From NCBI GenBank assembly GCA_017462485.1, contig JAFTRA010000025.1, forward strand, positions 1-37,111: a DNA stretch of 37,111 nt. The letters run 5' to 3'. Source of the DNA: Clostridia bacterium. GTDB lineage: Bacteria; Bacillota; Clostridia; Oscillospirales; CAG-272. The notes below the pieces were generated by a model. It was given only the letters and a program-made list of their open reading frames with translations, made no database searches and was not told the origin of the DNA. Both the position numbers and the translations under genes were made by a program. Of the stretch, positions 2,381 to 6,342 are shown in pieces (position 1 is the first letter of the stretch; each line of letters begins with the position of its first letter).

Positions 2381-3181
2381 TTATTCGCTGAAAGCTACGT
2401 TGATAGCCCCTACGCCACCGTCAATTTCAATGCGAGCAGCGCCACTGCCGAACGTTCCGCTCTCTTTGATATTCTTGCCGTCGAGCATAATGCTGCCAAC
2501 CGCTTTGTTTATCCTCAGGGTGTAATCATTAGACGAACCTAAAAATCTTAAGTTGGCCTCTCCGACGCCAAGGTCGATATCACTCTCGCCCGTTATTTTA
2601 GAGGTGAGATTCAGCTCCCCGACACCCATTTCAAATTCAAGATTATTGAGTGTTCCGCCCGATATCGTTACCTTACCGGCACCGCCTGCGATATCAGCCT
2701 CTTGAAGTGCGTTCAGCTCGCGAATATTAACCTCGCCTGCGCCAAGCTCAAGGTCAAATCTCTTTGCCGACAGCGTTTCAACGGTGAACCTGCCTGCGCC
2801 TGTAGTTACATCGGCGCTCTCAAAAACCTTGCCCTCGGGGATAGTCAGAACAAATACAGCATCGTCATAGTTTCTTCCGGAACCGCTTTTTTCTTTGGCC
2901 TTCAACGTGCTGCCAACTTCCTCAACCCTCAGATATTTAAGATTGCTCTCAATGCTGAAGGCAGCGCCCGTCTTTATCTCAAAATCTGCTGCGGGTATTT
3001 CGATTTCTATATCGGTAATGCCATCACTGACGGTATATAGCGTCGTTTCTTCATCGACAGCCTTACCGAAAATCCCGAAAACAAGTGCAACAGCCGAAAC
3101 GATAGCCCCTATAATACCGATTATAATAATTATCGCCAGGGCGAGTGCAACGTATTTTATTATTCTCTGCGTCCTTGTCAT
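2381..3181 (-). CDS. Membrane-anchored DUF4097-family protein
   Basis: 266 aa. One hydrophobic segment near residues 10-36 anchors the protein. The rest is a chain of short beta-rich repeats with recurring glycine-rich cores (GAGRFTV, GAGEVNI, GAGKVTI, GVGELNL, GVGEANL, GVGAINV). That spacing is typical of the beta-solenoid-like DUF4097 fold often annotated as putative adhesin. The start ATG overlaps the stop of the upstream LiaF-like gene as ATGA, so translation is probably coupled. No enzyme motif is present. An envelope-stress role is inferred only from the partner gene. Confidence 0.75.
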   Translation of the reverse strand: MTRTQRIIKYVALALAIIIIIGIIGAIVSAVALVFGIFGKAVDEETTLYTVSDGITDIEIEIPAADFEIKTGAAFSIESNLKYLRVEEVGSTLKAKEKSGSGRNYDDAVFVLTIPEGKVFESADVTTGAGRFTVETLSAKRFDLELGAGEVNIRELNALQEADIAGGAGKVTISGGTLNNLEFEMGVGELNLTSKITGESDIDLGVGEANLRFLGSSNDYTLRINKAVGSIMLDGKNIKESGTFGSGAARIEIDGGVGAINVAFSE

Positions 3182-3855
3182 TTAATTTCCACGCCTCCGA
3201 ATATTGATGTTGCGCTTACGTAAAGCGTAACACAGTCTTCGCGCTCTTCCTTTTTATTAGAAGCTCCGCCGAAAATTGAGGTTGAGCTTATTTTTACATT
3301 CACGTTATCGGGGACAATTATATCAATTCCGCCAAAGATTGCTGTTGCCTTTATAGCCGTATCCTTTTCTATGATGGCGCCTCGAAGATCAATGTCAATA
3401 CCGCCAAACACAGCGGTAAGCTCCGCGCCGTCGAATACCTCTCCGTTATAATTTATTTCATTACCCGAGAACATTGCGACGGATACTTTGGGTGCTACAC
3501 CCGAAGCTTTCATTTCTTCCAGAACTTCAGCAGTCTTGCTTTTTCCTGCAGACTCGGTAATCATCTTTATGCCAATTCCGACGATGATAACGGGTATTAT
3601 AAGCTTGAAGATTATATCGAAATCTATAATATCGCGGCTTGCGAGGAACAAGAGAACGCCCACTGCAATTCCTATAATATTTCCCGTCTTTTCCCGCTCG
3701 GTAAAGAGTCCGACAGCGCAAGGCACTATAATGAAGAGAGTCCACCAGCCGTCAAAGAAGAAATTAACGTTCGCCACCTCCAAGACGTCAAGGGCAAATA
3801 TAACGCCTGCAGCTATTAGCAGTGCGCCCCATATGATACCGTTTATTTTTTTCAT
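3178..3855 (-). CDS. LiaF-like membrane protein (DUF5668 / YvqF-type C-terminal domain)
   Basis: 225 aa. The N-terminal half has about four membrane segments within residues 5-100, typical of the LiaI/LiaF-like region. The C-terminal half has the repeated FGGIDI / FGGASN / FGGVEI pattern of the cell-wall-active-antibiotic response (LiaF/YvqF) domain. In Bacillus, LiaF is a negative modulator of the LiaRS cell-envelope stress system. No liaRS genes lie nearby, so the regulatory role is not established here. AAGGAGGG lies 7 nt before the ATG. It is the first gene of a two-gene operon with its own promoter. Confidence 0.78.
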   Translation of the reverse strand: MKKINGIIWGALLIAAGVIFALDVLEVANVNFFFDGWWTLFIIVPCAVGLFTEREKTGNIIGIAVGVLLFLASRDIIDFDIIFKLIIPVIIVGIGIKMITESAGKSKTAEVLEEMKASGVAPKVSVAMFSGNEINYNGEVFDGAELTAVFGGIDIDLRGAIIEKDTAIKATAIFGGIDIIVPDNVNVKISSTSIFGGASNKKEEREDCVTLYVSATSIFGGVEIK

Positions 3856-3987: not shown

Positions 3988-4016
3988 TTGACTTTGGCGC
4001 AATTTTATGGCATAAT
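3988..4016 (+). promoter_or_regulatory. Promoter of the DUF1538-PII operon
   Basis: TTGACT (3988-3993), a 17-nt spacer and CATAAT (4011-4016) precede the operon by about 48 nt. It is divergent from the LiaF-like promoter, with about 65 bp between the two -35 boxes. Confidence 0.65.
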
Positions 4017-4063
4017 ATATATTGGAAGTTAATGCGCGCAAATAAATTCAGGAGGCATATGAA

Positions 4064-5584
4064 TTGCATACGGTTTTACTGAAAAAGCTAAAAGAATCTA
4101 TGATTTCGGTTTTGCCCGTAGTGGCAATCGTTTTAACACTTAATCTGACGCCGCTGGTGAATTTCAGCTTAACGGAAATAGCCACCTTTGCCATCTCCTC
4201 GGTATTCCTTATACTTGGAATAGCACTCTTTAATCTCGGAGCTGACCTGGCTATGACTCCTATGGGCGAGCATATAGGCTCCGCTCTTACCAAGCTTCGC
4301 AGTATTGCGATACTGCTCTCGGTTTGCTTTGCTATGGGAGTTTTAATCACCGTTGCAGAACCTGATCTCTCCGTGCTTGCGGGTCAGGTAAAGGAGATAA
4401 TAAACAGCACAGCCCTGATACTTACGATAGGCGTTGGCGTTGGTCTTTTCCTCGTTTTAGCTATACTTAAGATAATATTTAGAAAGTCTCTCTCGTCGAT
4501 GCTTATGTTCTTCTATATGATGCTCTTCGCCTTTACGGCACTGCTCATTATAAGAGGAAACGAGGCGCTTATACCCCTCGCCTTCGACTCCGGCGGAGTT
4601 ACCACCGGACCTATTACAGTTCCATTTATCATGGCACTCGGTGTTGGTATTGCCTCAGCAATAGGCGGTAAAAATTCAGGTGAAAACTCATTTGGTCTTA
4701 TCGCACTTTGCTCTGTTGGTCCTATGCTCGCGGTTCTTATACTCGGCTGCTTCACCGGCGGTGAGCTTAACTTCATTCCCGAGTATGACCTTAACGTTGA
4801 ATTTTCTTATATAGTACATAAGATTTTCGACATCTGCGGCGAGGTTTTACTTGCTCTTTCGCTTATAGTAATATTCTTCCTTATTCTTCAATTAGTATGC
4901 TTAAAGCTCCCAAAAAAGAAGCTTTTGCAAATAACTGTTGGCATTATTTACACATTTTTAGGATTGGTAATCTTCCTTTCGTCAGTTTCGATAGGCTTTA
5001 TGCCTATTGGATATAAACTTGGCGGAGAGCTTGGCGAAAATCCCCTGCTCTTCATTCTCTTCAGCTTCCTTCTCGGAATGGTTGTAGTCCTTGCAGAGCC
5101 TGCCGTTCACGTTCTTAACAAACAGGTCGAGGAAATCACCGAGGGTACGGTAAGCCGTCAGGCAATGGTTATAGCGCTCTCGCTCGGCGTAGGATTATCT
5201 CTCGGGCTCTCAGCACTCAGAATAACCTTCGGCTTCTCAATTCTCTACTATCTTATTCCCGGTTACCTTATTTCTCTCGGTCTTTCGTTCTTTGTTCCCG
5301 GACTCTATACGGCTATTGCGTTTGACTCGGGTGGAGTTGCCAGCGGTCCTCTTACCTCAAGCTTCATTCTCCCATTTGCTGTTGGAGCTTGCGTTACGAT
5401 AGGCGGCGGAGCGGGAAGCGTTCTTACCGATGCGTTCGGTACGGTTGCTATGGTTGCTATGGCGCCGCTTATTACAATACAGCTTCTCGGCTTCAGGGCT
5501 ATCCTAACCAAGAAGATACGCGAAAGAATAGCAATGAACAGAATACTCAACGCTGACGACGAACAAATTATAGATTTTATGTAA
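4064..5584 (+). CDS. DUF1538 family polytopic membrane protein, duplicated
   Basis: 506 aa and strongly hydrophobic, with roughly a dozen membrane segments arranged as two homologous halves. Each half has an AEPx motif (AEPDLSVL in the first, AEPAVHVL in the second) and then a FDSGGV motif (about residues 174-179 and 420-425) followed by a Gly-rich helix. This is the DUF1538 architecture: an internally duplicated probable transporter of unknown substrate. TTG is the likely start: AGGAGG at 4050-4055 lies 8 nt upstream of it, whereas an ATG at 4059 is only 3 nt from that site and opens an out-of-frame 7-codon ORF. Two PII-like genes follow in the same operon, suggesting nucleotide or nitrogen/carbon-status control of transport. 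Substrate and direction cannot be read from the sequence. Confidence 0.85.
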   Translation: MHTVLLKKLKESMISVLPVVAIVLTLNLTPLVNFSLTEIATFAISSVFLILGIALFNLGADLAMTPMGEHIGSALTKLRSIAILLSVCFAMGVLITVAEPDLSVLAGQVKEIINSTALILTIGVGVGLFLVLAILKIIFRKSLSSMLMFFYMMLFAFTALLIIRGNEALIPLAFDSGGVTTGPITVPFIMALGVGIASAIGGKNSGENSFGLIALCSVGPMLAVLILGCFTGGELNFIPEYDLNVEFSYIVHKIFDICGEVLLALSLIVIFFLILQLVCLKLPKKKLLQITVGIIYTFLGLVIFLSSVSIGFMPIGYKLGGELGENPLLFILFSFLLGMVVVLAEPAVHVLNKQVEEITEGTVSRQAMVIALSLGVGLSLGLSALRITFGFSILYYLIPGYLISLGLSFFVPGLYTAIAFDSGGVASGPLTSSFILPFAVGACVTIGGGAGSVLTDAFGTVAMVAMAPLITIQLLGFRAILTKKIRERIAMNRILNADDEQIIDFM

Positions 5585-5596
5585 GGAGGAGAGGTT

Positions 5597-5995
5597 ATGG
5601 CAAGAGTTAAAACGACTAAAGCAAAGCAAGCGAAGACTTCAATGTCAGCTCCTAAGCAGCTTAAGCTTCTCTTTACGATAGTTAATAAGGAAAAAACAGA
5701 ATTTTTCGTCGACCTTTTGCACAATTTTGAAATAAATATGCAACTGATTTTATCGGCTCACGGTACGGCAAACGACCATATTATTTCTCTTCTAGGTCTT
5801 AACGACAGCTCAAAATCTGTAATCGTAAGTGCGATACGCAAGGACAAGGTTAAGGAAGCGCTTGCTACACTTGAAGAAAAATTCAGAACGGTAAAGGGTG
5901 GTAAAGGAATTGCCTATACAGTTCCGATAACCAGCATGATAGGCGTTGCGATTTATCAGTTCCTTTCCAACACGACAAACGGAGGTATAAGGTGA
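5597..5995 (+). CDS. PII-like signalling protein 1 (basic N-terminal extension)
   Basis: 132 aa. After a lysine-rich tail of about 20 residues there is a PII-like ferredoxin-fold pattern: strand LLFTIVNK, a helix, a short loop region HGTAND where the T-loop would begin, strand SVIVSAIRKDKV, and a C-terminal GGKGIAYTVPI segment like the PII C-terminal signature. The canonical T-loop uridylylation Tyr is not apparent, so modification like that of GlnB is unlikely. AAGGAGGAG precedes the ATG, 12 nt after the DUF1538 stop. Its stop overlaps the start of the next PII gene. Probably a divergent PII that binds the adjacent membrane protein. Confidence 0.65.
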   Translation: MARVKTTKAKQAKTSMSAPKQLKLLFTIVNKEKTEFFVDLLHNFEINMQLILSAHGTANDHIISLLGLNDSSKSVIVSAIRKDKVKEALATLEEKFRTVKGGKGIAYTVPITSMIGVAIYQFLSNTTNGGIR

Positions 5996-6342
5996 GTACT
6001 TATAAGCACGAGGTTATATTTTGTATAGTTAACGCAGGCTTTGCCGACGAGGTTATGGACGCGGCACGCGAGGGCGGAGCAAGAGGCGGAACCGTTATCA
6101 GAGCCAGAGGTACTGCAGCGCAAGAGGCAGAAAAGCTCTTCAATATCGCAATTCAACCCGAAAAAGAAATCGTTATGATTCTCATTGAAAGCAAGCTTAA
6201 AAATGATATTCTTCACGCGCTTTATAAAGAGGTTGGTCTTAATACTCCCGGTCAGGGCATAGCGTTTACAATGCCCGTTGAGGACGTCGTGGGATTAACC
6301 GATTTTTCTGCCGTAGATAAAAAAACCGAGCCCGCAGATTAA
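5992..6342 (+). CDS. PII family signalling protein 2
   Basis: 116 aa, a typical PII length. It shows the N-terminal strand EVIFCIVNAGFADEVMDAAREGG, the GGARGGTVIRARGT segment that leads into the T-loop of PII proteins, and the C-terminal GQGIAFTMPVEDVVGL signature. PII proteins are trimeric sensors of ATP/ADP and 2-oxoglutarate or other small ligands that gate transporters and enzymes. The start is GTG 5992, overlapping the previous stop by 4 nt, with GGAGG at 5981-5985. The operon DUF1538-PII-PII could give a heteromeric or two-input regulator of the transporter. Confidence 0.8.
   Translation: MSTYKHEVIFCIVNAGFADEVMDAAREGGARGGTVIRARGTAAQEAEKLFNIAIQPEKEIVMILIESKLKNDILHALYKEVGLNTPGQGIAFTMPVEDVVGLTDFSAVDKKTEPAD

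Follow-up and report, generated by a model that had tools for sequence, protein, structure and literature searches.

The locus examined here raises the question of what a membrane protein transports when its gene is followed by two different PII-like genes, and what those PII-like proteins do for it. The window, meaning the whole 37,111-nt stretch of DNA that was analysed, comes from a gut bacterium of the class Clostridia and carries three adjacent genes, termed T, A and B. The original prediction had described them as one tight operon, and the coordinates hold: the three open reading frames were verified in the window, the stop of T lies 12 nt before the ATG of A (5597), and A and B overlap by 4 nt. 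The features are as follows.

3988..4016, plus strand: weak promoter-like site, TTGACT-17-CATAAT, its -10 element preceded by TG; consensus match 10/12
4051..4056, plus strand: AGGAGG ribosome-binding site of T, read in the sequence
4064..5584, plus strand: T, a 506-aa membrane protein read from a TTG start, with two DUF1538 domains (PF07556) and related to UmpAB
4064..4798, plus strand: N-terminal DUF1538 repeat of T, residues 1-245, predicted N-in/C-out; Lys/Arg (K/R) bias +7 in the window
4355..4366, plus strand: AEPD motif of the N repeat, residues 98-101, at a helix break; invariant in 78 sequences
4583..4597, plus strand: FDSGG motif of the N repeat, residues 174-178; DSGG invariant, F174 nearly invariant
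4799..5581, plus strand: C-terminal DUF1538 repeat of T, residues 246-506, predicted inverted with a cytoplasmic C-terminus; K/R bias -8 in the window
5093..5104, plus strand: AEPA motif of the C repeat, residues 344-347; invariant
5321..5335, plus strand: FDSGG motif of the C repeat, residues 420-424; invariant
5597..5995, plus strand: A, divergent PII-like protein, 132 aa, with a Lys-rich N-terminal tail; assigned by predicted fold and homology to B
5992..6342, plus strand: B, PII-like protein, 116 aa, GTG start, matching PF00543

The promoter-like site lies about 48 nt 5' of the T start and is a weak match, as 12 such sites occur in the region on both strands where 4.5 are expected. Neither a Na+ riboswitch nor any other Rfam leader was found at T in the window or in eight relatives. 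Divergent from the T operon, on the minus strand at 2381-3855, lie two genes overlapping by 4 nt, one for a DUF4097 protein and the other for a membrane protein resembling LiaF.

T is a DUF1538 protein, with PF07556 as its sole Pfam match, present as two domains at 413.9 bits against a gathering score of 22.6. The internal duplication with paired AEPx and FDSGG motifs that had been read from the sequence is thereby confirmed, since both halves carry the domain and the motifs. Across 78 aligned sequences (the window and 77 close relatives), AEP and DSGG are unvarying in both halves, and the Phe of FDSGG is nearly invariant at residue 174 and invariant at 420. Some relatives with a single DUF1538 domain depart from the exact motifs, with VEP for AEP and MDSAS or FDAAG for FDSGG, while retaining the Glu and the Asp. 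The AlphaFold2 model of T (pLDDT 83.9, pTM 0.84) places seven helical units in each half; AEPD falls in the gap separating helices 81-98 and 100-108, and FDSGG (174-178) lies directly ahead of the break separating helices 167-181 and 185-200. Fold and sequence comparison returned no solved structure resembling T with confidence among the matches listed.

As each half has seven helices, an odd number, the two halves should be oppositely directed, and the distribution of Lys and Arg over the two membrane faces was counted with loops set from the window model and sequence and then transferred to relatives. Fused N halves showed a mean K/R bias of +8.6, positive in 104/104, and fused C halves a mean of -7.1, negative in 104/104. 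Proteins encoded by split pairs followed the same pattern, with a positive bias in 34/35 N proteins (the exception, L146, has an abnormal start and a bias of -8) and a negative bias in 35/35 C proteins. Single-domain DUF1538 proteins averaged +1.3 (n = 9, range -2 to 3; seven positive, two negative), so that the charge count yields opposite biases in the halves and values near zero in singles, the pattern of an inverted repeat. Removal of the termini weakened the N/C split, which was still present: the bias remained positive in 104/104 fused and 33/35 split N units and negative in 102/104 fused and 29/35 split C units. Asp and Glu also lean toward the inner face of the C half (negative in 84/104 fused and 30/35 split C units), with no such lean in fused N halves (mean -0.55); because they share this lean, part of the C-half K/R bias reflects a polar tail. 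Seven of the 80 close loci entered the charge count and 16 of the 80 the PII residue comparison described below; L001-L003 (the window itself), L007, L032, L156, L173, L192, L194 and L209 were excluded from the residue, tree and charge analyses. The halves of T are thus predicted to be inverted repeats with opposite K/R bias. A like series of dual-topology singles, opposite pairs and fused two-domain proteins is described for DUF606 in the accessible text of PMC3962082; DUF606 and DUF1538 are separate protein families, with a matching charge bias seen here for DUF1538, and that text mentions no PII partner, unlike the situation at DUF1538.

Examining the surroundings of DUF1538 genes in other genomes shows how constant the PII partner is. 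Among close relatives, defined as the best 80 of 317 found on genome contigs, a PII of the A type lies within 288 nt 3' of T in 80/80 loci, and B is also present in 77/80, the contig ending at that point in L088, L093 and L098. The broader set comprised 141 DUF1538 clusters, the best-listed matches from phylum and order samples; some species may be common to this set and the 80 close loci, and seven regions fetched by PII matches are not part of it. In 139 of these 141, a PII gene follows DUF1538 on the same strand at a distance of no more than 700 nt; the two clusters with no adjoining PII are L173, at a contig end, and L198, whose genome has a tandem PII on another contig. The neighbourhood search suggested with the original prediction therefore came out in its favour. 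A search of 299 phylum genomes with the B profile found both genes in 100, DUF1538 only in one (G056), PII only in two (G001 and G049, both weak matches) and neither in 196, giving a Fisher p of 2e-76 with the genomes taken as independent despite their relatedness. Across 72,556 plasmid records, the identical nine records carry DUF1538 and this PII subfamily, adjoining by coordinates, including loci from two genera of Alphaproteobacteria, each with a single PII. Other recurrent neighbours occur in at most 19 of 159 loci each, save for a family of ORFs that runs antisense to B in 34 loci. DUF1538 is almost obligatorily linked to PII, and the unit is widespread. Databases already show DUF1538 and PII genes side by side under automatic names such as 'P-II family nitrogen regulator'.

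Individual loci vary around this layout. In G218 (L230 2392-3114, G218:C77) a tandem PII is unlinked from its DUF1538 and stands beside a divergent ORF of 455 aa whose start is hydrophobic. G280 carries an extra tandem PII with no adjoining DUF1538 (L233 2778-3560, G280:C68), its nearest upstream gene being MFS-like by eye only. L178 and L183 (G103 and G137, one genus) contain two units in tandem, each a DUF1538 pair plus PII.

The number of PII copies follows the number of DUF1538 domains, and paired PIIs often form one tandem protein. Among the best-listed phylum and order clusters, one DUF1538 gene accompanied by one PII accounts for nine; two separate DUF1538 genes occur with one PII in 13, two PIIs in six and a tandem PII in 14; and fused T occurs with two PIIs in 14, a tandem PII in 79 and no adjoining PII in two (L173, L198). 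In terms of domains, 9/10 single-DUF1538 clusters have one PII domain and 93/95 plain fused-T clusters have two. L209 is the exception among the singles and stands outside this tabulation together with L007, an uncounted locus whose T is cut by the contig, and L192 and L194, whose T is broken or odd. At L209 (2754-4185, G308), a half-length T, an N-type repeat by score, is found beside a full tandem PII. Trees were built from 52 of 156 clusters plus the window by a quick method with no mixture model and with the root not inferred. In the tree of 97 DUF1538 repeats, a supported branch sets off each of three groups, singles, fused N and fused C repeats, and the N type is cleanly separated from the C type (support 97-100).

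Both small proteins are of PII type, as had been proposed. B passes the Pfam P-II model (PF00543; 29.0 bits, cut-off 25), and A alone scores 20.6 bits, below that cut-off; a P-II match at E<=0.001 was obtained for 67/70 members of the B alignment and 17/75 of the A alignment. The profiles of A and B match over 101 columns (hhalign E 7e-12). Structure prediction, named beforehand as the check on this assignment, gave a model of A with a PII-like ferredoxin-like fold by structure comparison, and for B the Pfam match stands. The top Foldseek match of A is PstA, a c-di-AMP receptor (PF06153; E 1e-5), and its further fold neighbours are CPII and, by structure titles, SbtB; for CPII (Thiomonas; 5d4l and others) the identity is 21-23%. 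Searched against PDB sequences, the B profile matches 9p1x best, an entry made up of 12 identical chains of a P-II family protein.

The pocket residues of these PIIs differ from those of the classical family. Residues K90, R101 and R103 are among those that define canonical GlnB/GlnK, and the T-loop Tyr51 and a TGxxGDGKI motif are described as family marks (PMC6516651). Comparison with E. coli GlnK covered 131 A copies, 131 B copies, 15 single PIIs of split pairs and nine PIIs from loci with a single DUF1538. Among B copies, G27 and T29 are present in 100%, G35, K58 and G89 in 85-87% and F92 in 83%, with R38 not retained and a variable position 39 (GlnK numbering) at which His is commonest; in the window this position is Gln in B and Asp in A. 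K90, R101 and R103 are never among the commonest residues in any of the four groups, the commonest replacements being Ile for K90 and Gly for R101, and window A and B both carry these two replacements together with Ala or Thr for R103. These PIIs have a shortened T-loop, and in both window proteins the position of Tyr51 lies within the gap; neither is therefore a canonical GlnB/GlnK. The description of A as having a Lys-rich N-terminal tail and no T-loop Tyr was correct; the GGARGG segment of B, which had been called canonical, is the region around GlnK G27-G35 in a protein that lacks Tyr51 and K90/R101/R103. T29 is kept in only 40% of A copies, and the pocket glycines, T29 and K58 are conserved in B and in the single-copy PIIs. 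On the PII tree, which has few columns and long-branch warnings and is weakly resolved, A copies form one group (support 89) and B copies are intermixed with the PIIs that occur singly at split umpA/umpB loci, an arrangement not forced by the starred branches. The simplest reading of these sequences is that window A is an added, faster-changing copy with a degenerate pocket and B the older one. CPII, SbtB and PstA are precedents for adenine-type ligand binding, and by analogy with them such a ligand is possible for these PIIs.

What T transports is best approached through its characterised relatives. With UmpA and UmpB of Halomonas zhaodongensis present together, E. coli KNabc again tolerates NaCl and LiCl; the two proteins co-immunoprecipitate and carry out pH-dependent Na+(Li+,K+)/H+ exchange (PMC5484666). 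The ORFs listed for the clone that gave this activity in E. coli include no PII gene, and the main text of that paper does not mention PII. UmpAB resembles T in needing two homologous DUF1538 units together, each with seven predicted helices, and differs in being encoded by two genes rather than as one fused protein. The E. coli K-12 genome contains glnK, and the KNabc strain presumably had its own PII proteins during the UmpAB work. No experimentally studied DUF1538 proteins besides UmpA and UmpB were found in the open literature. The reading we favour, with a little better than even confidence, is that T is a DUF1538 (UmpAB-related) antiporter exchanging monovalent cations for H+, and that the same operon supplies a PII-like regulator dedicated to it. 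Weighing against it are the unlinked pair in G218, the DUF1538 of G056 with no PII of this kind, the tandem PII beside a lone half T in L209 and the extra tandem PII of G280 with no adjoining DUF1538.

The alternative that survives best keeps PII control of T and gives T a cargo other than a monovalent cation, for example a bicarbonate anion or an organic solute, with the UmpAB activity specific to the Halomonas branch; we consider this rather improbable, though deserving of weight. T scores 163.9 against 490 bits and 134.6 against 500 bits in the UmpAB models NF041627 and NF041628, and because it lies so far under these equivalog cut-offs its substrate may differ from that of UmpAB. CPII is part of carbon systems, and it and SbtB, likewise from a carbon system, are fold neighbours of A; the missing Na+ riboswitch or other leader in the window and eight relatives leans the same way. 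Opposed to this, Na+, Li+ and K+ are what UmpAB, the one characterised DUF1538 case found, exchanges for H+ (PMC5484666), DUF1538 stands in a table of key pH-adaptation genes in PMC13255231, and AEP and FDSGG have acidic residues that never vary in either half across T and its 77 aligned relatives, which would fit cation/H+ exchange. The original prediction had called the substrate unknown; that view is too broad for a family whose pairs include the antiporter UmpAB (PMC5484666).

The established PII-transporter pairs offer partial parallels. AmtB-GlnK of E. coli likewise places a transporter gene beside a PII gene; AmtB is unrelated to T, which matches only PF07556, GlnK has a long T-loop and K90/R101/R103, both lacking in A and B, and one PII gene stands there against two in T-A-B. 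SbtA-SbtB has one PII-like protein in place of the divergent A/B pair, and its solved complexes 7egk, 7egl and 8zor are among the fold matches of A, whereas SbtA is absent among the 50 matches listed for T. The C-terminal redox R-loop of SbtB, with its disulfide (PMC10991534), has no counterpart here, as A contains no Cys and B one Cys near its N-terminus. PstA resembles A by fold, and PF06153 has no match in the whole host genome (98% complete), which encodes a c-di-AMP cyclase.

A further possibility, that A and B serve the structure or assembly of the transporter as subunits and are not signal-driven gates, appears unlikely. The tracking of DUF1538 domains by PII copy number, the frequent fusion of the PIIs, the degenerate pocket of A and the absence of K90, R101 and R103 from the commonest residues of every PII group would all suit subunits, but a clone lacking any listed PII gene sufficed for UmpAB activity in E. 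coli (PMC5484666), and the pocket glycines, T29 and K58 are conserved in B and the single-copy PIIs as expected of a ligand site.

The whole host genome has no AmtB match and no further Pfam P-II match, though the same search missed A, so that a divergent PII could escape it; with AmtB, PstA and a further P-II match all missing, A and B are probably not serving ammonium transport, and the 'nitrogen regulator' label is doubtful because the usual ATP-phosphate and uridylylation features are absent from both. That A and B are general nitrogen regulators merely co-transcribed with T, as the automatic annotation and the Pfam P-II match of B might suggest, is very improbable given the reciprocal co-occurrence (100/1/2 of 299 genomes), the absence of AmtB and the replacement of K90, R101 and R103 with Tyr51 in a T-loop gap.

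Returning to the antiporter with its own PII-like regulator, a possible mode of working can be outlined. T would act as a fused UmpA/UmpB pair, its two opposed seven-helix repeats forming one transport unit with helix breaks predicted at AEP and beside FDSGG in each repeat. A and B may dock on the cytoplasmic face of T, where B, having kept the pocket glycines and T29 and lost the ATP-phosphate residues, could sense an adenine-type small molecule and, on binding it, alter the exchange activity of T. A, as a degenerate paralogue of B, would adapt or tether the complex. Two separate inputs, as first envisaged, are less likely than a sensor B with an adapted partner A, because the site of A is degenerate. 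The activity of UmpAB in E. coli from a clone with no listed PII gene (PMC5484666) indicates that PII is dispensable for transport, which fits a brake and not a required subunit; the A/B pair would most likely restrain cation/proton exchange. In the fullest version, which is put forward tentatively and is held with clearly less confidence than the antiporter-plus-regulator reading itself, the two PIIs, often one tandem chain, would form a hetero-oligomer that gates an inverted-repeat cation/H+ antiporter; B would sense an adenine nucleotide or c-di-AMP in a pocket lacking the usual ATP-phosphate residues, and A would be a partner that binds none.

The unit had been put forward as undescribed, and no account of a DUF1538-PII link was found in the text of open papers; titles and abstract starts of the wider open PII-transporter literature likewise revealed no such system. 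One candidate, 'PII' in the accessible text of PMC7221264, proved to be part of a printed peptide motif and carries no such link. T-A-B is seemingly an undescribed version of the PII-transporter theme.

The textbook role of PII proteins is to regulate the transport of nitrogen and carbon, and direct PII control would, if the present reading is true, reach ion and pH homeostasis as well. Of the genomes sampled from one large bacterial phylum, about a third (101/299) contain DUF1538, and the names that databases currently give to these genes are 'DUF1538' and 'nitrogen regulator'. A series running from single through paired to fused transporters, with PIIs that are likewise single, paired or fused, may record the joint evolution of an inverted-repeat transporter and its regulator. 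If gating by the PII pair is true, the energy or c-di-AMP state of the cell would directly set cytoplasmic pH and Na+/K+.
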